Shown here piece after piece: positions 3,378-53,063 of a stretch of 61,740 bases of DNA. Each line of letters opens with the position of its first letter. Position 1 is the first letter of the stretch. Made by a program: the position numbers and the translations under genes. The notes under the pieces were generated by a model. That model was not told the origin of the DNA. It made no database searches and saw only the letters and a list, made by a program, of their open reading frames with translations. The stretch comes from a virus. The stretch spans positions 1-61,740 of IMG/VR virus record IMGVR_UViG_3300029258_001356. One strand, given 5' to 3'.

Positions 3378-4700
3378 ATGCCAAAGAAAACAAAGAAAGG
3401 AAAGAAAGACAAGGCTGAAAAGAAAGCTTTGGATGTAGACGAAGTACTGAAGCTTGCTTCAGAGAAGACGGGTGTCACACTCAATAAAGTAAAAGAGAGA
3501 TTCAATGACAAGGTCAAGTTATATGAAAAGAAGAATCTCGATAAGAAGGACGCAACCAAGAGAGCAATCAGATGCATCAGCATGTGGATGAAGAGACAGT
3601 TGTCATCCAAGGCAGAAGTATTTACTGGTATCCCTATTGGTGTGTCAGATGTATCAGACTTCGGTGCACAAAGAGATTATGATAATGCCATTAAGGCAGT
3701 CAAAGACGCAGACGGCAATTCTAAGAAGATGAAGAAGCTAGTCAAGAAAGGTCTCATTGATGAAGACGGCACACCCTTATATACAAAAGGATTCAGAGAG
3801 GGAAAGCCAATCAAGCCTTCCGAGAACCAACAGAGGACTGTATATATAATAGGAACCTCAGAGAAAGATAAGGACGCAAAGCCTCAGCTTATTAAGATGA
3901 GCACGAGGGGAGAGAAGCTAGACCTAGATGTTCCGCTATATAAGACATGCTCCTTTAGGGGTAATAGGAAACAGAGCCAGAAAGAAGAAGGTGTCCTATT
4001 AATCAATGCAGCTTCAGTGACAACCTTTGAGCCAGAATCTGATGAGAGAGAAGATATGTTCAAGGCTATCAAGAAGGTTAAGGCACTGAAGAAGTATGTA
4101 ATAGACCTTGAGGATCTTCCACAGCACTTCGAAGAAGAAGCAGATAACTTCAACAGGTTTGCTATTGTCAAGGCATACGTCGCAGATGTTAGATTCGCAG
4201 GCGATGACCAAAGGAACAACATCGTTAAGATATCAGATGATGATATGGAATACGACGAAGACTCATTGACCATTATAACCTGCTGGTGTAATGACAAGAT
4301 ACCAATCAACTTCCAAGAAGGAGCTGAAGTACTTGTCCTTGGAAAGGTCAACCTTAAGAAAGAGACAGGAGACTTATCCATAAACACAGTTGGTGTATTT
4401 GTCGGAGACGTTGACTTCGTTGATAGGGACGCAGAAACTATATCCCCAGAGGAAGACGAAGACGACGAGGAGGAAGACGATGAAGAGGAAGACGAATCTG
4501 ACGACGAAGACGAGGATGATTCTGACGAAGATGATGACGACGATGATGATGATGACGAAGATGACGATTCAGATGATAAGAAGAAAGAATCTGATGATGA
4601 AGAAGACGACGATGACGATGACGATGAAGATTCCGATGACGAAGAGGACGATGATGACGACGAAGACGACGACGACGACGATGACGAGGAGGATGACTGA
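3378..4700 (+). CDS. OB-fold single-stranded DNA-binding protein with very long acidic tail (RPA-like)
   Basis: 440 residues. The N-terminal ~30 residues are Lys-rich. Residues ~250-350 carry an OB-fold pattern: a strand-rich segment with TIITCWCNDKIPI, then GAEVLVLGKVNLKKETGDLSIN, as in RPA subunits. From about residue 355 the protein is almost only Asp/Glu. Acidic tails of this kind in bacterial SSB, T4 gp32 and T7 gp2.5 recruit partner proteins, though this one is much longer. The stop overlaps the start of the RecA-like ATPase (TGATG), implying coupled expression. The ssDNA-binding call is inference from fold and neighbours. Confidence 0.7.
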   Translation: MPKKTKKGKKDKAEKKALDVDEVLKLASEKTGVTLNKVKERFNDKVKLYEKKNLDKKDATKRAIRCISMWMKRQLSSKAEVFTGIPIGVSDVSDFGAQRDYDNAIKAVKDADGNSKKMKKLVKKGLIDEDGTPLYTKGFREGKPIKPSENQQRTVYIIGTSEKDKDAKPQLIKMSTRGEKLDLDVPLYKTCSFRGNRKQSQKEEGVLLINAASVTTFEPESDEREDMFKAIKKVKALKKYVIDLEDLPQHFEEEADNFNRFAIVKAYVADVRFAGDDQRNNIVKISDDDMEYDEDSLTIITCWCNDKIPINFQEGAEVLVLGKVNLKKETGDLSINTVGVFVGDVDFVDRDAETISPEEDEDDEEEDDEEEDESDDEDEDDSDEDDDDDDDDDEDDDSDDKKKESDDEEDDDDDDDEDSDDEEDDDDDEDDDDDDDEEDD

Positions 4701-5669: not shown

Positions 5670-5915
5670 ATGGCAAAGAAATACGACGATGCTTTCAAGA
5701 AGAAAGCCGAGAAGGTATTAGCAGCAAGCAAGAGTAGAGCAGAAGCAGCAGAGAAGCTTGGTTGCAGCAAGAACACTTTGAGGAGACTCTTCGGAGAAGC
5801 CCCAAAGAAACCTAAGGCAGAAAAGAAAGCAAAGAAACCAAAGAAGGACAAGAAAGCTAAGAAGAGCAAGAAAGTAAAGAAAGCTAAGAAGTCCAAAAAG
5901 AAGAAGTCAGAGTAA
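5670..5915 (+). CDS. HTH protein with Lys/Ala-rich histone-H1-like tail
   Basis: 81 residues. Residues 5-42 form a transposase/homeodomain-type helix-turn-helix (AAEKLGCSKNTLRRLFG). The remaining half is almost only Lys, Ala, Ser and Pro, resembling the tail of histone H1 or bacterial HU-like proteins. It likely binds DNA, with the tail giving non-specific contact; it could be a viral regulator or a nucleoid/packaging protein. It has its own promoter and a hairpin-plus-T-tract terminator, so it may be expressed at a high level or at a distinct time. Similar tails occur at 7546, 15841 and 16752. Confidence 0.7.
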   Translation: MAKKYDDAFKKKAEKVLAASKSRAEAAEKLGCSKNTLRRLFGEAPKKPKAEKKAKKPKKDKKAKKSKKVKKAKKSKKKKSE

Positions 5916-5945
5916 TCCTGACTTCATATTTTATTTTTTATTTTT
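5904..5945 (+). terminator. Hairpin plus T-rich terminator
   Basis: AAGTCAG (5904-5910) pairs with CTGACTT (5918-5924), overlapping the stop codon, and is followed by a run rich in T (5925-5945). T-rich tracts alone terminate archaeal RNA polymerase; the added stem makes this a strong candidate. Confidence 0.7.
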
Positions 5946-5970
5946 CAATCACTCTATAGGAGGGGTGCAA

Positions 5971-6525
5971 ATGATTATAATACTCGAAGGAATAGACAAA
6001 GCCGGCAAATCTACAATCGCAAGAAATCTAGCAAAGCTGCTCAATTGCAGAATTGTAAAAAGACCTAGAGAGCTTCTGCCATTCGCAGATGGAAAGATGG
6101 ATATTGTTCAGCAGTATATGTTTACAGCAGAACTGTTCAAGAAGGAGCAATTCGTAATCTTTGACAGATTCTATCCAAGTGAACTTGTATACTCATATCT
6201 CAGAGGAACAGACAAACTATATAACGAAGCTAATTCTGTCTGGCAATTTGAGAAGTGGTTCATTGAAAAGAACAAGTGTCTTATATTCGTAATAGAAGAT
6301 TATGAAGATGAGATACAGAAAAGGTTTGTTCAAGATAAGGAAGATTATCTTAGAACAGAGGACGTACACGAAATCATAGTCAGATATGAAGTCTTTAAGA
6401 CGCTATCCAAAGCAGATGTAATAATGCTTCCGGCGACACTAAACTTCATGGACAAGATGGAAAGAATTCTATCAGAGATTGCCCATAACACATGCACAAT
6501 AGATATTGAAGAGGATGAATTATAA
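5971..6525 (+). CDS. Thymidylate kinase-like deoxynucleoside monophosphate kinase
   Basis: 184 residues. P-loop EGIDKAGKST lies at residues 6-15, a DR-containing strand VIFDRFYPSEL near 68-78 (the dTMP-kinase DR(Y/F) motif), and a helical lid region with Arg residues. It would phosphorylate dTMP or a modified dNMP to the diphosphate. Because the neighbouring synthase homologue may act on dCMP, a modified-dCMP kinase role is possible. The ATG at 5971 is preferred to the GTG at 5965 because AGGAGGGGTG lies at proper distance. Starts a new operon after the 5904 terminator. Confidence 0.8.
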   Translation: MIIILEGIDKAGKSTIARNLAKLLNCRIVKRPRELLPFADGKMDIVQQYMFTAELFKKEQFVIFDRFYPSELVYSYLRGTDKLYNEANSVWQFEKWFIEKNKCLIFVIEDYEDEIQKRFVQDKEDYLRTEDVHEIIVRYEVFKTLSKADVIMLPATLNFMDKMERILSEIAHNTCTIDIEEDEL

Positions 6526-6545
6526 AGATAAGGAGCGTGAAAACC

Positions 6546-7196
6546 ATGGTTAATGTAAAATTTTACAAATACACAAAGATTGAGATACCAGAGAATATAA
6601 TAAAGGAACTCTTTGAATCACAGAGAGAGCTTATATTTAAGTATCAACAAGTTGAAAACCTAGGAGAACTAACACCTAAAGGATACTTGACGTCTCTTCA
6701 GACAAAAGCAAGTCAAAAGGTATTGAAAGATTTTGCTTGGAGAGTCACAGAAGAAGTAACAGAGATGTTCCATAGCATATATGAGCAGGATGATCCTGAG
6801 CACCCGAAAGAAGAGATAGCAGACACTATGCATTTCTATGTTGAACTCCTTATACTGTCCGGACTTGACTATGATAAGTTTGAAATGTATAACGTCAAAG
6901 AAAACTGGGTGCCGGTTAAGTATAGAGAGAATGTTTTAGAACTCGAATCTATGAGATTCATAAACCTGCTTGGGGACGCAATGAACATTCTCAAAAATAA
7001 GCCTTGGAAATTATCGGAGGTTCCGTCTGACGAAGACGAGTACATCAGGAGACTTAAGAGAACATTCCCTGCTTTCTTGAGATTGGTGGAAGCATACAAT
7101 TTCACACAGCAGAAAGACTTTGGTATAGAAGAACTCTACATCTATTATACCAAGAAGCACATGGTCAACCACTTCAGAGTTGACACAAAATATTAG
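6546..7196 (+). CDS. All-alpha NTP pyrophosphatase, dimeric dUTPase/MazG-like
   Basis: 216 residues. The metal-binding signature of this superfamily is visible as RVTEEVTEM (Glu69, Glu70, Glu73) and EEIADTMHFYVELL (Glu89, Glu90, Asp93). A late YYTKKHMVNHFR resembles the dimeric dUTPase C-terminal motif. It would hydrolyse dUTP (or another dNTP) to the monophosphate plus pyrophosphate, keeping uracil out of DNA and supplying dUMP. It fits with the UDG domain on the polymerase and the synthase homologue nearby. ATG 6546 is preferred over GTG 6537 from the AAGGAG spacing. Its TAG stop is in frame with the next gene's ATG. Confidence 0.75.
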   Translation: MVNVKFYKYTKIEIPENIIKELFESQRELIFKYQQVENLGELTPKGYLTSLQTKASQKVLKDFAWRVTEEVTEMFHSIYEQDDPEHPKEEIADTMHFYVELLILSGLDYDKFEMYNVKENWVPVKYRENVLELESMRFINLLGDAMNILKNKPWKLSEVPSDEDEYIRRLKRTFPAFLRLVEAYNFTQQKDFGIEELYIYYTKKHMVNHFRVDTKY

Positions 7197-7545: not shown

Positions 7546-7923
7546 ATGGTACAGACTCCTGAAGAAAAGAGAGCAAGAAGAAAAGCTAGACGTCTAGCAC
7601 GATTAAAGAAGGCTGGAGGAAAAGCTCCTAAGAAGAAAGTTAAGAAGGAGAGGAAGCCTAAGAAAGAACGAAAGAAGAGGAAGAAGAGGAGTAAGAAGCT
7701 TGACACTACTGATGTTGTAAAGATAGACAGAGAAATGGTAAAGATAAAGAATATACACGACGGACCTATCAATGTTAATACAACGTCTATTACTAAGAAG
7801 ACAGTTAAGCTAAAACCAAAGGAGAAGTATAAGTTTGTCATTGAGACAAACATAGACAAGACAGAGATTGAGAACTTGAAGAGGATCGGGTTCATCAAAA
7901 TCATAAAACCAAAGGAGGAATAA
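7546..7923 (+). CDS. Lys/Arg-rich N-tail protein with small beta domain
   Basis: 125 residues. Residues 7-50 are almost wholly Lys/Arg; the rest (from about DTTDVVKIDREMVKI) is a small beta-rich domain of the type seen in viral structural or decoration proteins. It starts 1 base after the previous stop. DNA or RNA binding is inferred only from charge. The beta domain could also be a phage tail or capsid ornament, which would be odd in this early module. Confidence 0.65.
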   Translation: MVQTPEEKRARRKARRLARLKKAGGKAPKKKVKKERKPKKERKKRKKRSKKLDTTDVVKIDREMVKIKNIHDGPINVNTTSITKKTVKLKPKEKYKFVIETNIDKTEIENLKRIGFIKIIKPKEE

Positions 7924-7925
7924 AA

Positions 7926-8633
7926 ATGAGAATATATAACAACTTTGCCCAAGCATGGGATGAGATAAAGAGAAATGTATCTGAGTTAGGTTTTGTTACA
8001 AAACTATACTCAATGCAGGACAAAATAGTAGAAGGTAATGACGACTACGATACAAAAGAACTTATCGGAGAAGTTTATACCTTAGATGGAGTAAGGACCG
8101 CTGATATGAAGAAGTTCTTCGAAGATAATCCAGACCTAAACCTTAGCTGGGATTGGGTAGTAGAAGATTTCGCAGAAAGAGTAAATCCTAACTATATAAA
8201 CCCAGGAGAAGCCTGGAAGCTCAGAGAGGACGTATGGAAGGAGTTTATGGTACAGGATAAGGGTAGATTCTCTTATACATACAATGAGCGTATACGCGTC
8301 TCTCTTAACCGCGTAATTGAAGAACTAAAGGAACACGGACCATCAAGACAAGCCGTCATATCCGTATGGAATCCTATTAAAGACGTAGACAAGTTAGGAA
8401 TCCACAGAGTTCCTTGTAGTATGTATTATCAGTTCATCCTTAGGAACGGAGAACTTCATATGATATATACAATGAGGTCTTCAGACATCTTGATACATTT
8501 CCCGTACGATGTAGCCACGACTCTTATGCTACAAGAATATGTAGCAGAGAAACTAGGAGTTAAGCCAGGAAGATTCACACACTTCTTGGGAAGCGTACAC
8601 ATGTACAAGAAAGATTGCAAAGGTCACTTCTAG
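7926..8633 (+). CDS. Thymidylate synthase-family enzyme with Asp at the pyrimidine-specificity position
   Basis: 235 residues of ThyA fold. SRQAVISVWNP (140-150), the catalytic Cys164 in RVPCSMYYQF, the phosphate-binding RSSD (184-187) and the His-x-Tyr of SVHMYKKD (His225, Tyr227) are all present. The residue that is Asn in dUMP enzymes (Asn177 in E. coli, in GLPFN) is Asp195 here, in HFPYD. In T4 dCMP hydroxymethylase the same position is Asp and selects cytosine. So this may be a dCMP methylase or hydroxymethylase rather than a dTMP synthase. The folate or pterin cofactor cannot be told. Followed one base later by a second TS-like gene. Confidence 0.85.
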   Translation: MRIYNNFAQAWDEIKRNVSELGFVTKLYSMQDKIVEGNDDYDTKELIGEVYTLDGVRTADMKKFFEDNPDLNLSWDWVVEDFAERVNPNYINPGEAWKLREDVWKEFMVQDKGRFSYTYNERIRVSLNRVIEELKEHGPSRQAVISVWNPIKDVDKLGIHRVPCSMYYQFILRNGELHMIYTMRSSDILIHFPYDVATTLMLQEYVAEKLGVKPGRFTHFLGSVHMYKKDCKGHF

Positions 8634-8634
8634 G

Positions 8635-9276
8635 ATGTTTGCAATCAGAGGAATAGAGTTAGAAGAAGTAATACCCGAGCTTGCTAAGAGAATGAACAAG
8701 CTTGGGGTTATTACACTCTATGACGTCTTCATTGAATGCGGGGTATCTCCCGACTTCAAGAAGATAAAGTGGATGGAGAAGTATTTCCACTTCTTTCTAA
8801 AACATCCAAAGGGTAAGTATAACCACATATGGAAGCATTACTATACCCCTATCATAAACGAACTTAGCGAGAAGCATATAACCGAACTTGTTAAGAAGAC
8901 TCTTATGTTTACCAACACAGGAGGTAAGAAATGTATAGGAATGATTATCTTCGAAGAAAAGACATTGAAAGTATTCTTTCGTTCATCATTCCTAATGCCA
9001 ACAATGTACTATGACCTCATTGTTCTCGATAGGTTTATCAAGTACATATACCCCTGGAGAAAAGTTAATAAAGTAGTATTGTATTTTAATAAAATAAAGA
9101 TCAACACTATCTATGGGCTACCGTTCACACAGCTGCTCATGAGAATAGAGAAACTGTCCCCTTACATGAGAAACCTCAGACGCAGATATCTTAAGAAGGT
9201 AGACCAATATGCACAAAGCAACAACTTTCAAAGATCAAGAGTCTATCGAAGATTCAGAGAAGAATTTGGAAAATGA
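8635..9276 (+). CDS. Divergent thymidylate synthase-fold paralogue
   Basis: 213 residues. The core can be laid over the preceding gene: KKCIGMIIF with Cys100 at the catalytic position, VFFRSS (Arg116-Ser118), MYYDL with Asp127 at the specificity site, then VLYFNKIKI where the His-x-Tyr should be. The RSxD Asp and the His are lost. It could be a degenerate subunit, a partner of the first synthase, or an enzyme with changed chemistry. The start overlaps the preceding TAG within TAGGATG, so expression is coupled. Assignment rests on pattern matching by eye and needs a structure prediction. Confidence 0.5.
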   Translation: MFAIRGIELEEVIPELAKRMNKLGVITLYDVFIECGVSPDFKKIKWMEKYFHFFLKHPKGKYNHIWKHYYTPIINELSEKHITELVKKTLMFTNTGGKKCIGMIIFEEKTLKVFFRSSFLMPTMYYDLIVLDRFIKYIYPWRKVNKVVLYFNKIKINTIYGLPFTQLLMRIEKLSPYMRNLRRRYLKKVDQYAQSNNFQRSRVYRRFREEFGK

Positions 9277-11903
9277 AGAAAGTCCTTGGGGCTGGCAATA
9301 AGAAAAGCAAGATTGCTATCTTTGGATTAGCCCCTCATCCGAACGGAGCTGGTAAGACTGGAGTTCCGCTAACTTCTATTACTAACAAGAGACTATTTGA
9401 ACCAGAGCTTGAAAGAATTGGATTAAAGAGAGAAGACATCTATATTTCTAATGTTATAAAGAAACCACTTGATGACCCAGACATTGATGACGTTGACCTC
9501 TTGGGTCTCGGCAGAGAGATTCATAAATTGAAAGCAAAGATTATTGTTGGCCTTGGGAAAACAACTTGTCGTGCAATCTGTGATTGCTTTAAGAGAAAGA
9601 AAGTTAAGTTTGAGGAAAACACACTAGTTTATCTGGACAGCAAGCATTTATTATTACAAGTCTATCACCCAAGTTATCATGCAAGAAAAGGAACAAAGCT
9701 ATCATTGGAACATCTTAGATGGATTCTTAAAGAACAATGGGTCATGGTATATCCAAAGCTATGTACTCTCTATCTAAAGTTTAGAAACAAGAAGAAAGAA
9801 CTTCTTGAAATAAAGCTTCTTGGGTTTTATGTATTTGAGCATTACAGAGACCCTGATGGAGAAGCCAAGTCTATCTTTGGAGATAGATATAGAAGACAGA
9901 AAAGAGTCTCTTTCGATCCGGAGCAGTTTATTGTTCATCAGAGAGTTCTCCAACTTAAATATGAAAATTCTAAAATAGGATATTTAGATGTTGAAACCAT
10001 GTATCCATCTCAGCCAGATGTGTGTTCTATAATCACTGTGTTATATAAGAAAACATTCTATGTCTTCGCAAGAGGAAGAAAACCCAAGAAGTCAACATAT
10101 AATGGGTATAAAGTAATTATCAAACCAATCCAGAAATACAGAATGTTTATGGAGAAGATGAACTTCGATATTCTCGCAGGTTGGAATGTTAACTTCGATC
10201 GTGATAAAGTTCAAATTCATATGAGAAGAAAATTCAACATGCAATCATGTTACTTTTATGATATGATGCACTTCTATAAAAAGATTGTAAGAGAGTCTCG
10301 AGTTTGTTACAAGCTAAAATATATAGCATCATATGAACTAGGAACAACCAAAGATGACATAGACACATCAAAGGCAGATGAGGAATATAGAAGAGACCCA
10401 GAGAGAATGATTAAGTATAACATAAAAGATGTTCTTCTCCTTAAACTCCTTAATGACAAACTCACTCTAATCGAATTTGCTGGAGCAATAGCAGAATATG
10501 GAAACGTCAATCTTAGAAAAGTAGAGTGGAACTCTAGAATCATTGAGGCAATGTTTATAAGACAGACAGATCTCTATATCCCAAGAAGACAATTTGGTAA
10601 CGAAGAAGAAATGGATTCTTACCATTTCCGTAAGAAATTTATATCAACAGAAAGTAAGTTTGGTGGAGGATTTGTAATGATTCCGAAGCCTGGGATATAT
10701 GAAAACATTTGTGTCTTTGATATGAAGGCATTGTATCCAAGTATAATGCAGACACTTAACATGTCACCAGAAACATTACGAGTTAGGAGGAAAAGCCATC
10801 ATATACTAGCTCCTTCCGATCCAGACAATAGAAATGACTTAACAATAGAAGACATCGAAAAGTATAAGATAAAATTCTATGAAGATGTTCATTACACAAC
10901 AAAGACTCCTGGGATACTTGCAACACTAGCAAAGAAAACAACAGGAGAAAGAGAAAGACTTAGAAGTCAAATGTCTGGATATGTCAAGACAAAGAAAAAC
11001 AGAAGCTTATATATGAAACAATATGCTGTCAAAGTTCTAGCCAATTCCTTCTTTGGAGTAATGGGATTTGAACACTTCTTCCTCTATGATAAAAGAATAG
11101 CGCAAGGAATATGTGCTATGGGAAGAACCATAATTAAATTCCTTTCAAAGAAAGCAATGAAGCTTGGGTATCAGACAATATATACAGACACAGACTCAAA
11201 CTTTATTAAGATAGATGACGTCAAAGAAATTCCTAAAGTAGAAAAGATGCTTAATAAAAAGCTTAAGAAACTAGGAAAGATATGCAATACTCCGTGCAAT
11301 GCTCTTGAGACAAAATTCGAGAAAAGATATACAAGATTTCTCATAGTTAAGAAGAAGAAGTATGCTGGAATAATTGAAGGGAAAGAAGGAGATCCAGAAG
11401 TAAAAGGATTTGAATGCAAGAGGTCAGACCATTCTAAATACTCAAAAGAGATTCAAAAGAATATGATATTCGACATACTCAAAACAGGAAAGATAAAAAC
11501 AAAATACCCCACACATCCAAATGAACTGAAGGCTATTCCTCTTAGAGATTTAGCTGTTCCAAAGAAGCTAACAAAAGACTTAGATGACTACAGCAGAAAG
11601 AGTCCGCCGATTCATGTAAGAGCTGCTAGAAAGTCTGGGATTGAATTAAATAAGCATGACACTGTCTGGTATCTTAATTTATATGGCGGAGATGTTGTAG
11701 CAATCAACAACATGAACGACGAAGAAATAGATGCTCACAAGAACAAAGTCGATTATTATTATATGTTCAACAAGACAGTGATTCCAAAACTTAATCTCAT
11801 ACTCAATCTAATGGATATACATATCGAAGATGTCAAGATAAATAATTTCAAATCTGTAGTTGGAAATAAACTTCTGCAAGATTTCCTGGAGTTTTCAACA
11901 TGA
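9273..11903 (+). CDS. Uracil-DNA glycosylase domain fused to family B DNA polymerase
   Basis: 876 residues. Residues ~10-150 match family-4-type UDG: FGLAPHPNGAGKTGVPL (active-site loop), YISNVIKKP, KIIVGLGKT and YHPSYHAR (motif B). Polymerase motifs follow: Exo I YLDVET (Asp239, Glu241), Exo II GWNVNFD (~303-309), Exo III YNIKDV (~382-387), motif A DMKALYPSI (~483-491), motif B KVLANSFFG (~587-595), motif C YTDTDS (~637-642) and KKKKYAG. Both 3'-5' exonuclease and polymerase therefore look active. This is the replicative polymerase. Family-4 iron-sulphur cysteines are not evident. Overlaps both neighbours by 4 bases. Confidence 0.93.
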   Translation: MKKVLGAGNKKSKIAIFGLAPHPNGAGKTGVPLTSITNKRLFEPELERIGLKREDIYISNVIKKPLDDPDIDDVDLLGLGREIHKLKAKIIVGLGKTTCRAICDCFKRKKVKFEENTLVYLDSKHLLLQVYHPSYHARKGTKLSLEHLRWILKEQWVMVYPKLCTLYLKFRNKKKELLEIKLLGFYVFEHYRDPDGEAKSIFGDRYRRQKRVSFDPEQFIVHQRVLQLKYENSKIGYLDVETMYPSQPDVCSIITVLYKKTFYVFARGRKPKKSTYNGYKVIIKPIQKYRMFMEKMNFDILAGWNVNFDRDKVQIHMRRKFNMQSCYFYDMMHFYKKIVRESRVCYKLKYIASYELGTTKDDIDTSKADEEYRRDPERMIKYNIKDVLLLKLLNDKLTLIEFAGAIAEYGNVNLRKVEWNSRIIEAMFIRQTDLYIPRRQFGNEEEMDSYHFRKKFISTESKFGGGFVMIPKPGIYENICVFDMKALYPSIMQTLNMSPETLRVRRKSHHILAPSDPDNRNDLTIEDIEKYKIKFYEDVHYTTKTPGILATLAKKTTGERERLRSQMSGYVKTKKNRSLYMKQYAVKVLANSFFGVMGFEHFFLYDKRIAQGICAMGRTIIKFLSKKAMKLGYQTIYTDTDSNFIKIDDVKEIPKVEKMLNKKLKKLGKICNTPCNALETKFEKRYTRFLIVKKKKYAGIIEGKEGDPEVKGFECKRSDHSKYSKEIQKNMIFDILKTGKIKTKYPTHPNELKAIPLRDLAVPKKLTKDLDDYSRKSPPIHVRAARKSGIELNKHDTVWYLNLYGGDVVAINNMNDEEIDAHKNKVDYYYMFNKTVIPKLNLILNLMDIHIEDVKINNFKSVVGNKLLQDFLEFST

Positions 11904-12996: not shown

Positions 12997-13303
12997 GCGA
13001 AAGGGAATAGTATTTGAAAGAAAGACTAGAAAAGTATTAGAAGCACAGGGATTCTTTTGTGTAAGACAAGCAGCGTCTATCTTTCCAGACATAGTAGCAA
13101 TAGCCCCAAAGACTGGTGAAGTTCATTTTATAGAATGCAAGGTTAAGGCTAAATATTTTTCAAGAAGAGAAAGAGAATACCTTCTTGAGATGCAGAAAAA
13201 ATACAACGTCAAACCATTTCTTGCATATAAGAAAAGAGAAGGAAGATATGTCAATGTTCAGATTGACCCAGTTGTTCCATTAGTAAAAGAAAAAGAAAAA
13301 TGA
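12962..13303 (+). CDS. hjc: Hjc-type Holliday junction resolvase
   Basis: 113 residues, typical for archaeal Hjc. The PD-(D/E)xK core is visible: KGIVFERKTRKVLEAQGF with Glu19, SIFPDIVAIAP with Asp43, and HFIECKVKAK with Glu58 and Lys60. It cleaves four-way junctions, here likely resolving replication/recombination intermediates before packaging and working with the Sak4-like ATPase. AGGAGTGG lies upstream of the ATG. Its TGA overlaps the radical SAM start. Confidence 0.88.
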   Translation: MEKKKRRLKNPKRKGIVFERKTRKVLEAQGFFCVRQAASIFPDIVAIAPKTGEVHFIECKVKAKYFSRREREYLLEMQKKYNVKPFLAYKKREGRYVNVQIDPVVPLVKEKEK

Positions 13304-14286
13304 AAAAAATATTGTTAGTTGATGCCGATTCAAAGATACCGAACATAGCATTGATGAAGTTATCGACATATTGGAAGAAGCATGGATATAAAATAGACTT
13401 CATGAAGCTAGGTTTATCCTTTTACAAAGATACCAAGAATCCAATAATTGTTGATGCTAAAGGATACAGGAAAGTCTTTGTCTCTATTGTATTTGACAAC
13501 AACCGCAATTCTGTAAAAGTAATTAATGCTAAGGGTCAAGTTAGATTTGGTGGAGCAGGGTATAATATCAAGTCCAAACTCCCAAAACGAATTGATGCAA
13601 TAGCCGAAGACTATTCTCTATATCCAGACAATGACATATCCTATGGATTCATAACAAGAGGATGTGTTAAGAATTGTGACTTCTGTATAGTAAGACAGAA
13701 AGAAGGACGATTGAAAAGATATAGAAAGATTGAAGACATACAGAAGCATGAGAAAGTATATTTCTTAGATAATAATATACTTGCCTATTCAAAATGTAAT
13801 GACGTCTTGAGAGAACTGATTGATAAGAAAATCAAATGCCGGTTCATACAAGGATTAGACATTGCGTTTATAGATAATGAGAAAGCTAAATTACTTTCTG
13901 AGTTAAGATATGACATGTCTTACATCTTTGCTTTTGATAATATCAAAGACCTAAAGATGATAAAAAGGAAGCTAAAGATTCTGAGAAAATATCTTGGAGA
14001 TTGGAAAATAAAATTCTTCTTATACTGTCATCCGAGAATGAGTCTCAAGAAAGATATAATGTTTAGAATTAATTTCTGTAGAGAAAATAAAATTCTTCCT
14101 TATATCATGAGAGACAAAGCTTGTTACAAATCTGAGTATGACTTTTTCTTTAAAGACATAGCAGCTTGGTGCAATCAACCATCTCTATTCAAGAAGAAGT
14201 CATTTCTACAATTTCTTAAGATGAGACATAAGAATCCGAAAAGAATAAAATATTCAAAAGGAGTTTATGATGAAATACAGAATTAA
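13300..14286 (+). CDS. Radical SAM protein
   Basis: 328 residues. The cluster-binding motif TRGCVKNCDFCIV gives Cys122, Cys126 and Cys129 (CxxxCxxC), followed by an alpha/beta barrel with GLDIAFID near 200. The first ~90 residues form a Rossmann-like domain starting MKKILLVDADSKIPN, which in B12-type radical SAM enzymes binds cobalamin. Substrate is unknown; nucleotide or DNA-base modification is possible since it lies among polymerase, primase, resolvase and helicase genes. Overlaps the helicase start by 20 bases. Confidence 0.82.
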   Translation: MKKILLVDADSKIPNIALMKLSTYWKKHGYKIDFMKLGLSFYKDTKNPIIVDAKGYRKVFVSIVFDNNRNSVKVINAKGQVRFGGAGYNIKSKLPKRIDAIAEDYSLYPDNDISYGFITRGCVKNCDFCIVRQKEGRLKRYRKIEDIQKHEKVYFLDNNILAYSKCNDVLRELIDKKIKCRFIQGLDIAFIDNEKAKLLSELRYDMSYIFAFDNIKDLKMIKRKLKILRKYLGDWKIKFFLYCHPRMSLKKDIMFRINFCRENKILPYIMRDKACYKSEYDFFFKDIAAWCNQPSLFKKKSFLQFLKMRHKNPKRIKYSKGVYDEIQN

Positions 14287-20771: not shown

Positions 20772-20870
20772 CGACTTCCTGATAGGAGAGGTGCTCTAGA
20801 CATAGCCTAGAACTCCCAATAATAATACCCTTTCGTGGTTTATTAATCTTCTCCAAGCTTAGAGAGTGTC

Positions 20871-21158
20871 TTAATATCCGCGAAAGAATGCTTCTACGCT
20901 CTGTTTGTTACGGAATATCTCCTGTATCTCATTCTTAATCTTATCTGCTCCAGCGAACACTCCTGCTGCAAGTGCGACTTTGAACGAAACGTCTACTCCG
21001 AAATACTGTGCGACAAAAACACAAACACCAGCGATGACTCCTACCCTCAAGATCCTCTCCATGGTTCTATACCAAGGAAATTCTCTTAGCTTGAGTCTCT
21101 TATCTCTGACCCAAATATATCCCGCGGCTATCTTCTGTGGTATGGTTTTCCAATTCAT
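20871..21158 (-). CDS. Small membrane protein, holin-like
   Basis: 95 residues with two hydrophobic segments, about residues 38-52 (VGVIAGVCVFVAQYF) and 58-70 (FKVALAAGVFAGA), separated by a short turn, and charged ends. This is the shape of class II holins. Last gene of the leftward structural operon, ATGA-coupled to another small membrane protein and a protease-like gene, so a lysis role is likely but not shown. Confidence 0.65.
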   Translation of the reverse strand: MNWKTIPQKIAAGYIWVRDKRLKLREFPWYRTMERILRVGVIAGVCVFVAQYFGVDVSFKVALAAGVFAGADKIKNEIQEIFRNKQSVEAFFRGY

Positions 21159-21391
21159 ATTATACCTCCTACTTTTAATATAATCGTAATGGCAATGCCA
21201 AGAACCCCACTAGCACTTATAACTCCTACTGCACCCTTGAATCTGTTTATGAATGTCTCATGCTTTTGAACTTTTCCATTGATGGCTTTGAAATGGTCAT
21301 CAGCTCCTTCTTTCCATTTGTCATCATATTCGACATAGTCCTTGAACTCTTGTCTAAATGCGGCTAGTGTGGCTGTTTCTTTTTTATTCAT
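21155..21391 (-). CDS. Small membrane protein, XhlA-like
   Basis: 78 residues: an N-terminal amphipathic/coiled-coil half (AFRQEFKDYVEYDDKW...) and one C-terminal transmembrane helix (GVISASGVLGIAITIILKVG). The layout matches haemolysin XhlA-type phage membrane proteins that assist holins. Overlaps both neighbours by 4 bases. Confidence 0.65.
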   Translation of the reverse strand: MNKKETATLAAFRQEFKDYVEYDDKWKEGADDHFKAINGKVQKHETFINRFKGAVGVISASGVLGIAITIILKVGGII

Positions 21392-22242
21392 CGTCTTGGT
21401 ATTATCCTCACATTCTTTAGGTTCTTTTTAAAACTGTTCTCGGCTACACCTGTTTCAAATGTATGCCAAGCCCCATAGTCATTGAATGAGAACCAAACAT
21501 CCTTGATTCCAATTTTATCACTAGAATCATTTGACTTAGGCAATTCATTAAAGGTTCTTGGAATCATAGATATTGGTGTTGTTGAATTCATATGTCTCCA
21601 AGTAACAAGATCGTCAGATAGTGGATAAAATGTCGAATGACCAAAGTCTTCCCATGTCAAACCACAAACTGCCCTAAGTCTCCATGATGGAACTCCGGCT
21701 GCTATCATATGAGATATTAGTGAATGAGTATAATCTTCACAGTCTCCTTTCCTCTTAGCCATCATCTCGTATGGGAAAAGCCAAAGCTCTGGTATCTTAA
21801 ATGTCTGTTCGTCATAAGCATATGAAAAGTACTTCTGCTGATGCCATCTGTATATCTTCAACATATCATCGTCACACTTAAGAGGATCTTTGACGAGAAG
21901 GTTATAGTTCCTTACATTATTCTGTATTACCCTATCCCTTGGGGTAATAAAGAGTCTTACATCCATCTCTAACATCTCTCTTGGTGATAATGGATAAGGT
22001 CTTCCTCTATAGAAGATGTCTGCCATAGGCTTTCTGTTGTCCCAGTATATCTTCCTTGGATGATTGTTAACAATCTCTTTATTACGCAATGCCTTCAATT
22101 CGGAATTGAGTTCATCTATCTGAGTAAGAGCACTAGAATATCTTTCTTGATAATACTCTGATGTCTTTCTACATTCTCCAATCTGTGCACTGAATCCATA
22201 TGCTCGATCGAACATATCTTTGATAAATTCTTTAAAGCTCAT
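21388..22242 (-). CDS. Transglutaminase-like cysteine protease/hydrolase
   Basis: 284 residues. The transglutaminase core is visible: RKGDCEDYTHSLISHM (catalytic Cys), later WEDFGHSTFY (His) and a following Asp in SDDLVTWRH. The N-terminal ~70 residues are helical/coiled-coil. Archaeal-virus pseudomurein endopeptidases (PeiW/PeiP) are papain/transglutaminase-like enzymes, so this could cut the host envelope; the holin-like neighbours support a lysin. A tail-tip processing protease is the alternative, because the tail fibre genes lie just upstream. Confidence 0.7.
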   Translation of the reverse strand: MSFKEFIKDMFDRAYGFSAQIGECRKTSEYYQERYSSALTQIDELNSELKALRNKEIVNNHPRKIYWDNRKPMADIFYRGRPYPLSPREMLEMDVRLFITPRDRVIQNNVRNYNLLVKDPLKCDDDMLKIYRWHQQKYFSYAYDEQTFKIPELWLFPYEMMAKRKGDCEDYTHSLISHMIAAGVPSWRLRAVCGLTWEDFGHSTFYPLSDDLVTWRHMNSTTPISMIPRTFNELPKSNDSSDKIGIKDVWFSFNDYGAWHTFETGVAENSFKKNLKNVRIIPRR

Positions 22243-32230: not shown

Positions 32231-33256
32231 TCATGTAATTGTAGTTGTGAGAAGTGTTGGCTTCTCATCTATTGTATTGTTCATTGTAGCTCCTGCTGGA
32301 GATGGAGCCTGAACAGTGAACTTAACTCCTCTGTCTGAGTAAGTTTTTATCTCTGCGTCTACCTTGACTGTTCTATCTGAATACCCATTTTGTTCTGCTT
32401 CAAACTTAACAGTCCTTTCCGAGAACCCGAATACCTCTGCTTCGAACTTTAGTTCTCTATGATCATCATCTGGTTGTTCTGCTTCAAACTTAACTCCTCT
32501 GTTTGAATAATCAACTCTTTCTGCTGTAAACTTAACAAGTCTGTCTCTATATCGTTCGAGATATGCATCAAATTTAACTCCTCTTCCTGAATGTGCAACT
32601 ATCTCTGCTTCTGTTTTAACAGACCTGTCACTGAATGATTTTATCTCAGCTTCAAACTTAATTGGTTTATCATCGAGATGTTCTACTTCAGCTAGGAAGA
32701 TAATACCCCTATTAGTTACACCATTCTGTTCTGCTTCAAATTTAAGATCTCTACCAGAAGTTGTTAATATCTCTGCATCAAAGATAACAGACCTATCTGT
32801 GTATCCAGTCTGCCTAGCCTCAAATTTTAATCCTCTATCTGAAAAGTCTATCTGCTCTGCTTCAAACTTAACTGGTCTATCTATATCTTCTGGCTGTTCT
32901 GCTATGAATTTTAAATTTCTATCTGAATGACCAAAAACTTCTGGCTCTATCTTAACAGACCTATCACTGAATCCTCTTGCTGCTGCATTAAATTTAACTC
33001 CTCTGTCAGAGACTCCGAATACTTCAGCTTCAACTTTAATTGTTCTGTCACTATGTCCAAAAACTTCAGCTTGTGTAATCACTAGTCTTCCATCGTCAAC
33101 AACTATTGCTGCTGTGAATTTAACTCCTCTTCCCGATGTTCCACTTGTAGATAATGGCTGTTCAGATCCTTGAGATGATTCTGTCCCAATGAATTTTTGG
33201 TACTCATCTTCAGAAGATCTTTGTCCTTCATTAAATGTATTATTAAATGTAGCCAT
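32231..33256 (-). CDS. Protein of ~19 tandem 14-residue repeats, probable beta-solenoid or fibrous structural protein
   Basis: 341 residues. After ~45 N-terminal residues nearly all the chain is a 14-residue repeat with consensus R-x-V-K-F-x-A-E-x-x-x-x-S-D, about 19 copies, ending at PSPAGATMNN. Alternating hydrophobic residues at V, F and A suggest stacked strands. Repeats vary in codon and residue, so this is not a recent slippage array. Lies between a huge LamG adhesin and the neck genes; it could be a fibre shaft or capsid decoration. I know no named family for it. Confidence 0.7.
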   Translation of the reverse strand: MATFNNTFNEGQRSSEDEYQKFIGTESSQGSEQPLSTSGTSGRGVKFTAAIVVDDGRLVITQAEVFGHSDRTIKVEAEVFGVSDRGVKFNAAARGFSDRSVKIEPEVFGHSDRNLKFIAEQPEDIDRPVKFEAEQIDFSDRGLKFEARQTGYTDRSVIFDAEILTTSGRDLKFEAEQNGVTNRGIIFLAEVEHLDDKPIKFEAEIKSFSDRSVKTEAEIVAHSGRGVKFDAYLERYRDRLVKFTAERVDYSNRGVKFEAEQPDDDHRELKFEAEVFGFSERTVKFEAEQNGYSDRTVKVDAEIKTYSDRGVKFTVQAPSPAGATMNNTIDEKPTLLTTTIT

Positions 33257-36200
33257 CGGATACTCCTATTCTAAATTTGTACATTGAAGTTTTTGTATTA
33301 TAATTATCTCCAGATGTTCCTGAAAGTAATGGATTACCTGCGCTCCAGTTTGCAGAAGCTGGTTCTATTCTTCCTTGATCGAGATTATTCTCATCTTCTT
33401 CATTAACAAGTTGTGAAACATATTGATTTCCACTATTGCTTCTTCCTCCAACAAATCCTCTAGAGTCTGTGTAATATGTATTACTTGATACCTCTGCAGT
33501 ACTTTCTCCATGCCACGAATAGTGTTGTCCAGAATCTCCTGCTAAACTTCCTGAGCCTAAAAACGCAATCCTATGTTCATTTGTTGTAACAAGTTTATAC
33601 TCTCCGTCTATGAATGAATTTCCTCCATAAAGATTATGCCACATACTATGGCTTCCATTATCATGCCTTACACCAAGCATGATTGCCCCAGAATCAACTT
33701 TTAATCCTTGAAGTCCTGATACTGCGGCATTTGAAGAAAAGTATGTCGTTCCTGAATCTGCAACATTCCACAACATAGATCCTGCAAGATAGTTAAGCCA
33801 ATCACTCCCCCCCTTAAAGAAATAACCCTCTACTGCTCCTCCGTCTCCTAAAACTGCTTTATGAATTGGAGTCTCGACAGTAAGCTGTGTTGCTCCAGTG
33901 CTCCAAGTTAATTCATATGGACAATTGTATTTCGCAGGAGTTGTTAAACTTCCATAGTATAATTCGTATGTATTATCAAATCCCATTGGTCTTCTTACAA
34001 CGTTACTTATTCTAATCTCATCTATTAGCCCCCTAAAGTATTGAGTACTTGAATTCTCGTTGTTGTTACCAATCCAAAGGTATGTAGAAGCAGGGTCAGG
34101 TATTCCTACACCTGCCGATTCTTTATCCATCAAAACACCATTAACGTGAAGTTCATAGATATAGTTACCATCTGCTCCCTTGTGCCAGTTGAACGTAGCA
34201 AAATACCACGTATCTATTGCCAAGAATCCGCTTGGGGTTTCAACCGTTTTATTGCTACTGTTATAAATATTAACTTGTAAAATCCCACCAGTCACGTACA
34301 TACGAATAGCCTTGATTGCAGGAGATAATTCTCTTATAGAATAAATCCACTGTTCGGCGGTTATGTTGCTTCCTGTTTGGAATACTGCTTCAACACTTCC
34401 TTGCTCTTGTGACGAATTAAATATATTAAGGCTAGAAGCTGTCGCATAGTCTCCTGCTCCGAAACTTGCTGAGTAGCTTCCTACCCTACTTGTTCCACTA
34501 AAGCTTCCTCCATTATTTGTCAAGTCATATCCGTTGTCACTATCATCTGTCCAGTCGTTCTCAAACTTCCAAAGAGCTTGTGTGAATTCATCATTCTCCA
34601 TAGTTAAGACCTTCTGGTATGTGTTCTCTCCTAAGAACATTAATCCTGTAGGCTTATCGTCTCCGTCATAAACTCTAATCTCGTCCCAATAACTTGTTCC
34701 AAATTTCCCTGTATCTCCATCAAGTATATCAAAATTTGTCAAAGAAGACACACCACTAAATGTTCTTACAAGTGTTCCATCTATGTATCCTTTTGTATCT
34801 GTGCCATCACAAACAAACTTAAACTCGTGCCAGCCGTCTGTCCTTGCTACACTTGTTGCTACCCAACCGCCATCATAATAACAATAATTGTCTCCGTCTG
34901 TTCCTGTATCTACACCGAGTCCTTTACTTTGAGTAGATACCCAAGCTGAAGCATACTTACTTGAAGCGTCGTCGTCGTAAAACTTTAAAACAACTTTGTT
35001 ACTTGATACTGTTTTTCTTGCTGATTGTTGTGCTGATGGTGTTGTACTGTCTAACTTTATACTCTTTGTTCCAGAATAACAAGTGTCATTATTATAAACT
35101 CTATAAGTATTACTTCCTGCTACTGATGTCCATCCGTTCTTTCCAATTATAGTGATGTCATTTATTTCACCTTCTGCATTATCAAAAAATTCTGCATCTT
35201 GATAAACAAGCTGACTTGGTATCTCTTCTTGTGCTATTGGCAACATTCCATTAACATCATCACAAACTCTAACTGTCCAATAAGTATCAGTTCCAGGCAA
35301 TATTGCACCTGCATAATAAAATCTTAATTCATTAAAAGTTGGATATGAACCCATACTTTCTTTATACACAAACTTATTATCTAAATAAACATACATCGAT
35401 GTCCCAGTATGAACATACTTAATTGTGTGCATCCCTTTAGTTCTTTTAATTCCAGTATCAGTCCAACTTCCACTACTTGTTCTATAACAATAATTAAGTA
35501 TTGATGTTCTGCCTTGAATTCCTAGTCGCGCAATAGCTGTCCCACTACTTGCTACATACAAATAATAAAACTGTTCTGTTGAAGCAAGGTTTGCATAATC
35601 GTAAAACTTATATTCTACTGTTCCTGTTTGTCCTGTGAAACTATTTACCATAGCAATACCATTTGTGTTGGTTGTTGCCATCTTAACATATTTATGAATT
35701 TCATTTCCTTTATCAGAACTATAAGCTGGTGTGCCGTTTGCATATAGCACATAACTCCAACCTCTTGTTGACAAAGCTGTAGAATCAGCGACGTCTTTAC
35801 TCCCTTCCATCAAATCATAATCGCCTTCAGTCCAGCTTGACCCGTATCCTACAATCCTACAGTCGTATCCATCGTCTCTCTGGTTACTGCTTATCTTTTC
35901 CTGCGGAGCATATAACCCATTACTTACTTTAATGTCGTCTATATACATAGTATCTCCATTATATCCTAAGAAGAATAAAGTGTCCCAAGAAGAACCTGTA
36001 GCTGTAGCACTTCCCACGTATTTTCCGTCTATGTAATATTCCCAAGACGTTCCTCCTAACCATTTAAACTCAAACAACCTCCAGCCGTATTTTCTTTTCA
36101 TACCAGTTGTCTGCCAACCACTGTTATAATACACATAATGAGTCACACTTGTTGAGTTCTTAATCCCAAGCAACACATTAATCTGGCTTGAACCTGTTCT

Positions 36201-37166
36201 TACATCAGCTAATTTGTATTCACTGTCGGTAGGATTCTCGTCAAAGAACCACATTTTAATGCAACCCCTTGCACTTGGTTGCGTAAATGAATCACTCTTG
36301 ATTACATACGGACTTGTGGAAGGTACAACTTTTAAAGATTGTGTTCCATTCTTACTATAATCTGTACTGTATGAAAAACTACCACTACCGCTTTCAAAGT
36401 TCCAGTTATCACTTGCACTACCTGTTTCGCAGTCATCATAAAATTGATAATCTCCGCTCGTCGTACTATCATCCGTCAGTGGCACAGTTATAGGATAATT
36501 ATTAAACCTTAATGGAAAGAAACTTCTTTTAGCTTTTCTATAAACCTTACACTCATCCAGAACACCATCAAAGTTATTAGAATTTCCACCGTCTTGTCCT
36601 ATCCTTATATTAGTTGAAACAGCCCTTATAGTGCCAACCTGAGAAAGTTTATTTTGCTCTACCCCATTAACAAAGATTCTCACATACTTGCCGTCATATG
36701 TTCCTGCAACGTGTGACCAAACACCCACTGGCAAAGCTACAGAACTTGTCGCTGTCCTTTGAGTAGATGTTCCATCCCAAATACTAAAGTAAGGCTGTCC
36801 GCTTCCATTAATAGCCAATCTATACGAACTTCCCTTTTCAATTAAATATCCAGAAGCTACATCTGGCTTACACCAGCATTCCAATGTAATGAAATCTCTT
36901 GGCTGTAATACTGTATCATTTGATACAACTATTTTATGTGTCGATCCTGAGAATTCTCTACCGTTATTTATTTTTCCTGTGACTATACTTGTTCCCGTTA
37001 CCCCACACGTATGACTGTATATTGAACTATCTGTAGGAGTTCCTGATGGTTCATCAAGTTTAAGATAGAGAACTAAATTTTCATCTATATCATAATCTTG
37101 TTGTTCTCCAGCATTAGGATAGTCGAATCCTATACTTCTCTTATAATTTGCACTAGGAAGACTCAT
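33243..37166 (-). CDS. Large LamG-domain adhesin / virion fibre protein (1307 aa)
   Basis: Longest gene of the window. Residues ~25-215 form a concanavalin/LamG domain (ENLVLYLKLDEPSGTPTD..., FITLECWCKPD, WSHVAGTYDGKYVRIFVNG, FDGVLDECKVYRKAK). A short DUF2341-like stretch follows (FFPLRFNNYPITVPL). Then come several related jelly-roll units with DDC/EDxxxxxSxNGTQSLK patterns, and a second LamG at ~865-1090 (ALWKFENDWTDDSDNGYDL..., FRGLIDEIRISNVVRRP). The end is Ser/Gly-rich. Likely surface-exposed and sugar-binding, for host attachment. No signal peptide. Confidence 0.72.
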   Translation of the reverse strand: MSLPSANYKRSIGFDYPNAGEQQDYDIDENLVLYLKLDEPSGTPTDSSIYSHTCGVTGTSIVTGKINNGREFSGSTHKIVVSNDTVLQPRDFITLECWCKPDVASGYLIEKGSSYRLAINGSGQPYFSIWDGTSTQRTATSSVALPVGVWSHVAGTYDGKYVRIFVNGVEQNKLSQVGTIRAVSTNIRIGQDGGNSNNFDGVLDECKVYRKAKRSFFPLRFNNYPITVPLTDDSTTSGDYQFYDDCETGSASDNWNFESGSGSFSYSTDYSKNGTQSLKVVPSTSPYVIKSDSFTQPSARGCIKMWFFDENPTDSEYKLADVRTGSSQINVLLGIKNSTSVTHYVYYNSGWQTTGMKRKYGWRLFEFKWLGGTSWEYYIDGKYVGSATATGSSWDTLFFLGYNGDTMYIDDIKVSNGLYAPQEKISSNQRDDGYDCRIVGYGSSWTEGDYDLMEGSKDVADSTALSTRGWSYVLYANGTPAYSSDKGNEIHKYVKMATTNTNGIAMVNSFTGQTGTVEYKFYDYANLASTEQFYYLYVASSGTAIARLGIQGRTSILNYCYRTSSGSWTDTGIKRTKGMHTIKYVHTGTSMYVYLDNKFVYKESMGSYPTFNELRFYYAGAILPGTDTYWTVRVCDDVNGMLPIAQEEIPSQLVYQDAEFFDNAEGEINDITIIGKNGWTSVAGSNTYRVYNNDTCYSGTKSIKLDSTTPSAQQSARKTVSSNKVVLKFYDDDASSKYASAWVSTQSKGLGVDTGTDGDNYCYYDGGWVATSVARTDGWHEFKFVCDGTDTKGYIDGTLVRTFSGVSSLTNFDILDGDTGKFGTSYWDEIRVYDGDDKPTGLMFLGENTYQKVLTMENDEFTQALWKFENDWTDDSDNGYDLTNNGGSFSGTSRVGSYSASFGAGDYATASSLNIFNSSQEQGSVEAVFQTGSNITAEQWIYSIRELSPAIKAIRMYVTGGILQVNIYNSSNKTVETPSGFLAIDTWYFATFNWHKGADGNYIYELHVNGVLMDKESAGVGIPDPASTYLWIGNNNENSSTQYFRGLIDEIRISNVVRRPMGFDNTYELYYGSLTTPAKYNCPYELTWSTGATQLTVETPIHKAVLGDGGAVEGYFFKGGSDWLNYLAGSMLWNVADSGTTYFSSNAAVSGLQGLKVDSGAIMLGVRHDNGSHSMWHNLYGGNSFIDGEYKLVTTNEHRIAFLGSGSLAGDSGQHYSWHGESTAEVSSNTYYTDSRGFVGGRSNSGNQYVSQLVNEEDENNLDQGRIEPASANWSAGNPLLSGTSGDNYNTKTSMYKFRIGVSDGYI

Positions 37167-51872: not shown

Positions 51873-53063
51873 CTAATGATTTGTCGTATTCGTTCCTATG
51901 GAATCACCAGAACCTAGTGGAAGGATTGCGTCTACATATACGTCACCTTCTTCATCCGGATCTCCTATTCTCATCTTTCTTATCGGTAGAGGGTCTGCGT
52001 CTACATGCGGAGCTAACCTGTTATCATTCTCTACGCCTTCATCTACCTTCTCTCCTTGACTTACCATTTCGTTGTATGCTCCCAACGGATCTGGCATCTT
52101 CAAAGGAGCAGGCGCCATCTCACCTATATCATCTCTTCCTATTCTTAGTTTCCTAGGCATTTCTTCGCCTGGGATATGATGTCTATGCTTATATGCTATC
52201 TCATTGTAATTGGGAGATGTAACCCTATGCACTTCTCTTCCATCTTCCTTCCATTGCTCCCTCTTAACTCCATTGTCTACCTCTGATGAATAATCTTGCA
52301 TGTCTGCAACCTCCATTGCGTTTTTGAATCGTGCTAAAGGACCTAAGCCATAATGATCAAGAAGCGGTGTCCCTCCGAAGTCATTGAGTCTCTTGACCAG
52401 CTTCACCATCTTCTTGTAGTTGTCTCCAATTTGGGCGTATTGCAAAAGGTTTTCTCTGTGTGTTAAGATAGCCCTTTGCAACATAGGGTGTATGTCCGCC
52501 TTCATCTGTGCCTTGAATCTTAAGGCTCTTAAGATGATAGATGGATCACGGGCTAAAACCACTTCTGGGTCTAGCGGAGTTCTAATTACGTTTTCTCGTG
52601 CATCCTTGATACCTAATCCCGTAGGATCGTAATACTTCCCTGATAGAGGTTCTTTGAATACTGCATTGAATGTAAAATCCCTAGAATAAGCGTCTTCATT
52701 GATTGGTGTTATGGGTATCTCTTGTCTATCCATCTCTTCATGTACCCAATGAAGAATTTGCTTCAGACCTCTGAACTCTACATTGATGTCATCTATAACT
52801 AGGTGTGCTACACCACTCTTAGAACCATGGTCTGGATTAGGAAGATTCTCGTCTCTGGCTACCAGATACGCTAAGGCAATCGAGTTACCTCTTTCCAGCG
52901 TAGTAAGGTCAGCATCAGAAGACTCGTCGAATGGGATATTGGCAAGTTCATTCCTGACAATACCACCAGAGACGAGAAGCGTCATATCATTCTTTTGTGC
53001 TAGGATACCTATCTCCCTCAGAAGATTATCCATTTCCGCTTTTGTTGAACCTGTTTCAATCAT
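51873..53063 (-). CDS. Class II nucleotidyltransferase, CCA-adding enzyme/poly(A) polymerase head domain
   Basis: 396 residues from ATG 53063, which overlaps the preceding stop. Motifs in order: LVSGGIVRNEL (31-40), catalytic carboxylates in SSDADL (Asp50, Asp52), SRDFTFNAV (127-135), YDPTGLGIKDARENVIRTPL (145-164) and DPSIILRALRF (173-183). These are class II CCA-enzyme motifs. Archaea use class I enzymes, so this came from outside or from other viruses. Residues ~250-396 are unlike tRNA-binding domains and low-complexity. Sitting between terminase and portal, it may modify tRNA, another RNA, or a protein. Confidence 0.82.
   Translation of the reverse strand: MIETGSTKAEMDNLLREIGILAQKNDMTLLVSGGIVRNELANIPFDESSDADLTTLERGNSIALAYLVARDENLPNPDHGSKSGVAHLVIDDINVEFRGLKQILHWVHEEMDRQEIPITPINEDAYSRDFTFNAVFKEPLSGKYYDPTGLGIKDARENVIRTPLDPEVVLARDPSIILRALRFKAQMKADIHPMLQRAILTHRENLLQYAQIGDNYKKMVKLVKRLNDFGGTPLLDHYGLGPLARFKNAMEVADMQDYSSEVDNGVKREQWKEDGREVHRVTSPNYNEIAYKHRHHIPGEEMPRKLRIGRDDIGEMAPAPLKMPDPLGAYNEMVSQGEKVDEGVENDNRLAPHVDADPLPIRKMRIGDPDEEGDVYVDAILPLGSGDSIGTNTTNH

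Follow-up and report, generated by a model that had tools for sequence, protein, structure and literature searches.

A predicted cytosine-directed thymidylate synthase homolog and a linked second protein of the same predicted fold in a viral gene module

ORF 7926-8633 of the viral sequence analyzed here (IMG/VR record IMGVR_UViG_3300029258_001356, positions 1 to 61,740; the window, below, means this whole stretch of 61,740 nucleotides) encodes a thymidylate synthase (TS) homolog, D-TS, that very probably acts on dCMP, judging from its residues and its gene context. Beside it lies a gene of a previously unannotated family, X, which structure comparison assigns to the same fold; this linked family is what is new here and is the more surprising part of the finding. 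Both genes are part of a set that is widespread among viruses and that probably serves to supply their DNA with an altered cytosine. By analogy with phage T4, we lean toward a route in which D-TS, as a cytosine-directed enzyme, would form 5-hydroxymethyl-dCMP, with a kinase, a polymerase, and X acting alongside. The features concerned are as follows.

5965 to 6525, + strand: deoxynucleoside monophosphate (thymidylate-type) kinase, 186 aa (Pfam Thymidylate_kin, 1.4e-8; phrog_761 thymidylate kinase, 1.1e-14)
6537 to 7196, + strand: all-alpha nucleotide pyrophosphohydrolase, dUTPase_2/T4 gp56-like (Pfam dUTPase_2, 1.8e-7)
7926 to 8633, + strand: D-TS, Asp-type thymidylate synthase homolog, predicted dCMP C5-modifying enzyme, 235 aa
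8415 to 8417, + strand: codon (TGT) of the catalytic Cys164
8508 to 8510, + strand: codon (GAT) of Asp195, at the position of E. coli ThyA Asn177 and T4 gp42 Asp179
8635 to 9276, + strand: family X protein, 213 aa, keeping Cys100, Arg116, and Asp127 (X profile, Foldseek, linkage, conservation)
9273 to 11903, + strand: family B DNA polymerase with an N-terminal uracil-DNA-glycosylase (UDG) domain (Pfam DNA_pol_B, 7.4e-48; UDG, 5.7e-14, at residues 6-149)

An Asp-type thymidylate synthase homolog

The reading frame of D-TS is intact, and its ATG follows a good ribosome-binding site with GGAGG (GGAGGAATAAAA-ATG); the N-terminal MRIY is common to its relatives, so we take the start codon to be right. 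A preliminary description of this DNA, made from the letters alone, had called the product a thymidylate synthase homolog, and Pfam (PF00303 Thymidylat_synt, E = 2.8e-22, 79.6 bits against a cut-off of 24.3), phmmer searches of the PDB, and alignment all agree. The predicted structure (pLDDT 95) retrieves TS-superfamily structures with Foldseek (probability 1.00, E = 7e-17). Its first structural match is the dCMP enzyme AfhB (7.4e-17), which profile comparison, too, ranks nearest among solved structures (2.7e-20), while the best single-sequence match in the PDB is 1njc, the engineered Lactobacillus casei TS N229D with dCMP. Among PHROGs the best match is phrog_160, likewise the best for T4 gp42 and RB69 ORF048c, and not the SPO1 family phrog_5131. 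The best NCBIfam match, the archaeal (methanogen) thymidylate synthase TIGR03283 (1.2e-22), also describes short proteins, but at 80.4 bits against a curated cut-off of 174.55 D-TS falls outside that family. By fold, PF00303 score, and catalytic residues, D-TS belongs to the thymidylate synthase superfamily.

In the phmmer alignments to PDB sequences, Cys164 falls on the catalytic Cys, RSSD on the Arg/Ser/Asp motif, HMY on His-x-Tyr, and Asp195 on L. casei TS residue 229 (E. coli 177), and a MAFFT alignment with E. coli ThyA, T4 gp42, and SPO1 gp29 places Asp195 identically. The catalytic set listed in the preliminary description (Cys164, Arg184-Ser185-x-Asp187, His225-x-Tyr227) is thus kept, together with Arg141, and so is its central claim: alignment to ThyA and T4 gp42 gives Asp, not Asn, at position 177. 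Asn occupies this position in E. coli ThyA and the SPO1 dUMP hydroxymethylase, and Asp in T4 gp42 and RB69 ORF048c.

We collected relatives from IMG/VR in two scans, one using five relatives and the window protein itself as queries (64 loci), the other starting from X alone (67 loci, partly on the same contigs); a scan of genome contigs gave one locus only, in a Dysosmobacter MAG. Asp stands at position 177 in 65/65 distinct homologs, cultured phages included, and in all 64 full-length Asp-type homologs of the X-first loci, a set that partly overlaps the 65, which excludes chance or sequencing error. Cys164, Arg184, Ser185, Asp187, and His225 are each present in 65/65, as are Asp230 and an Arg three residues before the catalytic Cys (Arg161); Tyr227 is kept in 54/65 and is otherwise Phe, and His191 is kept in 62/65. 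At position 147, His in ThyA, D-TS has Ser165 and the whole clade has Ser or Thr (65/65). No member has the C-terminal tail, with 4-19 aa following Asp230. Ser165, Arg161, and the tail-less end had not featured in the preliminary description. Phe107 (57/65) takes the place of Val85 in T4 and Trp83 in TS, and Tyr117, two residues before the catalytic Tyr (57/65; His in 7), that of T4 Ser94. At the catalytic Glu58 position D-TS has Asp81 and seven relatives have His, and the alignment there, or the role of this position in D-TS, is uncertain; Glu84 (acidic in 60/63) and Glu45 (63/63) are candidate alternatives for the acid. In a tree, the D-TS clade forms one side of a branch with SH-aLRT 98, apart from ThyA, SPO1, T4, and RB69/AfhB, the order among these four being unreliable because the deep branches are long.

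Known classes were considered in turn. Canonical ThyA, acting on dUMP, has Asn at 177 and the sealing C-terminal tail, both absent from D-TS. An SPO1-type dUMP hydroxymethylase needs Asn at 177, where D-TS has Asp; at the Arg161 position SPO1 has Asp. RB69 ORF048c and AfhB (PDB 9iqc, 9iqu), which hold dCMP as substrate in the structure and are flavin dependent by their PDB entry titles, share Asp at 177 with D-TS but have Asn at Asp187 (an RSQN motif) and Glu at Arg161; the separate tree position and Asp187 in 65/65 place D-TS outside their clade. In MetaGPA, TS homologs on cytosine-modified viral contigs are set apart from others most clearly by positions 177 and 147 (PMC8670742). Like the MetaGPA homologs, D-TS combines Asp at 177 with an altered residue 147, though the case studied there paired a TS homolog with a carbamoyltransferase (PMC8670742).

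Family X and the surrounding gene module

D-TS sits in a tight + strand run consisting of the kinase, the pyrophosphohydrolase, two small ORFs, D-TS, X, and the UDG-polymerase fusion, with a terminator-like hairpin at 5903-5925 ahead of the kinase. X and the pyrophosphatase, neither of which appeared in the preliminary description, are the strongest contextual evidence. X has no Pfam family, its weak Pfam matches being scattered single-member ones, and its PHROGs (phrog_34294, phrog_13667) are both of unknown function. It emerged from clustering of neighboring genes, beside D-TS in 56/66 loci, and the gene at 8635-9276 is hit at 7.8e-8 by a profile from which the window was left out. Profile comparison of X with D-TS gives a probability of 87%. 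Modeled with AlphaFold (pLDDT 79), the X protein of the window has 13 PDB matches at E <= 0.001 with Foldseek, all in the TS superfamily (best, 2.8e-6), with AfhB and T4 dCMP hydroxymethylase at the top and MilA and ThyA also among them; TM scores of about 0.5 suggest the same TS fold with much divergence. We therefore class X as a TS-fold protein by comparison of predicted structure, the profile comparison being the weaker support. Cys100 (66/66), Arg116 (64/66), and Asp127 (66/66) are conserved and fall, in the profile alignment, on Cys164, Arg184, and Asp195 of D-TS; X lacks the His of the His-x-Tyr motif.

The linkage holds from both directions. X occurs in 67/77 D-TS loci, 3 of the other 10 ending at a contig edge, and D-TS occurs in 65/67 X-first loci, where every full-length Asp-type homolog has both the Asp and Arg161; of the two exceptions, one is a contig stretch that stops 180 bases past X, and the second is 4.9 kb long. 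All X genes lie on the D-TS strand, at a median gap of 196 bases, and INPHARED records that match X are also among those matching D-TS. One of these proteins, ORF27 of Yersinia phage P744, is annotated "pyrimidine hmase synthase" and adjoins a D-TS; that name appears in two records only, and the family is elsewhere labeled hypothetical protein. In the stretches of T4 and RB69 examined, X was not found. We infer that X works with D-TS. It may be a partner subunit, the active sites of TS being formed by both halves of a dimer, or it may catalyze a later step, in which it would reopen the cytosine ring by Cys addition.

The kinase that the preliminary description placed at 5971 is real; its longest ORF starts with GTG at 5965, and an ATG lies at 5971. 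A homologous kinase adjoins the module in four relatives (L001, L019, L023, L024), and kinases are annotated at the same place in phages P744, Serbin, and PMBT14, that of Serbin in the same PHROG as the window kinase. By PHROG the window kinase is not orthologous to T4 gp1 (phrog_761 versus phrog_139). The pyrophosphohydrolase family is present in 64/66 loci, and we propose that the window member is a dCTPase or a dCTPase-dUTPase. It matches phrog_12184 and phrog_173, families that T4 gp56 matches too, and gp56 matches the L001 ortholog at 7.6e-7; since gp56 falls short of the pyrophosphohydrolase profile at a threshold of 1e-5, the link to gp56 is drawn from the phmmer match to L001 and the common PHROGs. 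The start codon (ATG) of the polymerase overlaps the X stop codon, so the polymerase is probably co-expressed with the module. Within its UDG domain (residues 6-149) we noted the motif GLAPHPNGAGKTG, with HPSYH further on; the first is more suggestive of a family 5 than of a family 4 glycosylase. A pattern scan of IMG/VR found no relative of the fusion.

Carriers of the module include Serratia phages Serbin, Tlacuache, and Opt-155; Pseudomonas phages PMBT14, Almagne, and Lebethron; Yersinia phage P744; Brevundimonas phages; and Gordonia phage SheckWes. Gene order varies among them. In locus L051 (2667-6352) an Asn-type ThyA (3668-4639) stands between two X genes directly upstream of D-TS, making four TS-fold genes in one gene run. 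A gut phage run (L005, 1642-6741) consists of a trimeric dUTPase, an all-alpha pyrophosphohydrolase, X, ThyX, X, and the Asp-type TS. In L006 (7154-8774), the Asp-type enzyme is immediately followed by an IspD/TarI-like nucleotidyltransferase and a LicD-like protein (assignment by eye), which could decorate either the modified base or the host surface.

Substrate, product, and competing readings

The cytosine direction suggested in the preliminary description gains support from the clade-wide Asp, from Ser/Thr at position 147, from the T4-like neighbors, and from extra nucleotide genes in some relatives. Trimeric dUTPase occurs in 22 and ThyX in 6 of 92 distinct loci, and L051 carries its Asn-type ThyA besides D-TS; in L005, L051, and L075 the ThyX or Asn-type ThyA lies within the module's own gene run. 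Viruses so equipped, although a minority of the relatives, do not need the module for dTMP synthesis or dUTP removal, which points to cytosine.

T4 makes hydroxymethyl-dCTP by way of the gp56 dCTPase, gp42, and the gp1 kinase, and the window has neighbors of the same types as the gp56 dCTPase and the gp1 dNMP kinase. On the T4-like route that we prefer, the pyrophosphatase would convert dCTP to dCMP, which D-TS would bind with Asp195 contacting the cytosine ring; Cys164 would attack C6, and C5 would receive one carbon from methylene-tetrahydrofolate or from its archaeal counterpart in the host. The exocyclic methylene would then be quenched, most likely by water, giving 5-hydroxymethyl-dCMP, our best guess for the product. 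The kinase would phosphorylate the modified dCMP as the first step to the triphosphate, and the polymerase would put the modified nucleotide into viral DNA, where it may confer resistance to restriction. Sequence, predicted fold, residues, and linkage are the basis on which we infer the substrate, the product, its incorporation, and the role of X. Counting against this route, the window ORFs scanned include no 5-hydroxymethylcytosine glycosyltransferase, and the window shows no ThyX or second ThyA.

Up to the exocyclic methylene, leaving the last step aside, D-TS probably works as T4 dCMP hydroxymethylase does. The two have in common Asp at 177, the Cys, the Arg/Ser/Asp motif, His-x-Tyr, the lack of a tail, and phrog_160, at about 25% identity over 155 aligned residues and in separate clades. 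T4 Asp179 is the cytosine determinant, and Asp195 of D-TS would likewise pair with and protonate cytosine N3 (PMC6400193). In TS, the C-terminal tail seals the active site for hydride transfer, and T4 dCMP hydroxymethylase is without it (PMC6400193); by this analogy, the missing tail favors an open site and attack by water. The T4-type hydroxymethylation signature calls for Asp or Glu at the third residue before the Cys and for Ser or Thr at the second before the catalytic Tyr (PMC6400193), and it is nonetheless absent (Arg161 in 65/65, Tyr117 in 57/65). Because T4 Asp145 and Ser94 are Arg161 and Tyr117 in D-TS, and Phe107 replaces Val85, we do not file D-TS as a T4-type enzyme; Thr118, one residue before the catalytic Tyr, could substitute for the Ser/Thr. 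The preliminary interpretation stands in part. Its cytosine direction is well supported; as between a 5-hydroxymethyl, a 5-methyl, or another C5 product the evidence is mixed, the tail-less end resembling T4 and the hydroxymethylation signature being missing.

There is some room, though less than an even chance and indeed rather little, for a two-component cytosine-modifying system unlike that of T4, in which D-TS and X together would direct something other than water onto the C5 methylene and so make a new cytosine base. Two TS-fold proteins, each with a Cys and a cytosine-reading Asp, would act as a mixed enzyme or one after the other, and the family-specific Arg161/His191 pocket would admit an attacker other than plain water. 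The new base would be made at the nucleotide stage, both in bacterial phages and in this probably archaeal virus.

The enzyme of Xanthomonas phage XP12 makes 5-methyl-dCMP, and D-TS would do the same if its methylene were reduced by hydride from tetrahydrofolate. Engineered N229D and N177D synthases yield 5-methyl-dCMP after this Asn-to-Asp change (PMC8670742, citing Hardy and Nalivaika, Liu and Santi), the bulky aromatic Phe107 stands at the Trp83 position, and the water-activating Asp of T4 is absent. We consider a dCMP methylase unlikely all the same, as no member has the tail that seals the TS site for hydride transfer (PMC6400193).

A flavin-dependent dCMP 5-hydroxylase like RB69 ORF048c or AfhB, with 5-hydroxy-dCMP as product and glycosylation later, is improbable. 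AfhB is the nearest solved structure by both profile and fold, Asp177 is common to both, and RB69 too has a nearby kinase gene, but Asp187 (65/65) contrasts with Asn in RB69/AfhB and so favors folate over flavin, Arg replaces Glu three residues before the Cys, the D-TS family forms its separate clade, and arabinose-pathway genes were not recognized nearby.

Ordinary thymidylate supply, in which D-TS would convert dUMP to dTMP despite its Asp and the pyrophosphatase and kinase would be a dUTPase/dTMP-kinase set, fits the annotation of the neighbors as thymidylate kinase and dUTPase_2, the lack of another recognized dTMP source in the window (no ThyX or second ThyA; one PF00303 match only), and the deaminase genes that adjoin the module in Serbin, PMBT14, and others, but it is most unlikely given that Asp replaces Asn in every member, that His147 and the C-terminal tail are lost, and that several relatives have ThyX or Asn-type ThyA as well.

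If the cytosine-directed reading is true, nucleotide-stage synthesis of a cytosine base, best known from T-even phages, reaches a broad clade of tailed viruses spanning those of Gram-negative bacteria, actinobacteria, gut bacteria, and probably archaea, and a second TS-fold component without an assigned function joins it. The presence of the module in cultured Serratia, Pseudomonas, Yersinia, and Gordonia phages makes this testable.

The virus and other features of the window

The window virus is tailed, and its host is probably an archaeon. For both the terminase and the family B polymerase, the best E-values listed are those to haloarchaeal tailed viruses (about 25% identity), and an archaeal-type Hjc resolvase is encoded; a search by polymerase found no relative in IMG/VR. 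In a host that uses tetrahydromethanopterin, the one-carbon donor may be tetrahydromethanopterin. There are no tRNA genes in the window.

Several further genes drew our attention. Between Hjc and an XPB-like helicase lies a small radical SAM protein (13300-14286; CxxxCxxC at residues 122-129; phrog_9298, 5e-58). A 440-aa protein (3378-4700) has a very long Asp/Glu-rich C-terminal tail, and two ORFs near it (5670-5915 and 7546-7923) are extremely lysine rich. The 1307-aa product of 33243-37166, with two Laminin_G_3 (concanavalin-like lectin) stretches, is likely a receptor-binding or adhesion protein. The gene for a protein with a Poly(A) polymerase/CCA-adding head domain (51873-53204) has the portal gene (49888-51864) on one side and the large terminase gene (53660-55291) on the other. 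Replication genes lie on the + strand and structural genes on the - strand, and at about 20800-21400, where the gene strand switches, GC and AT skew change sign.
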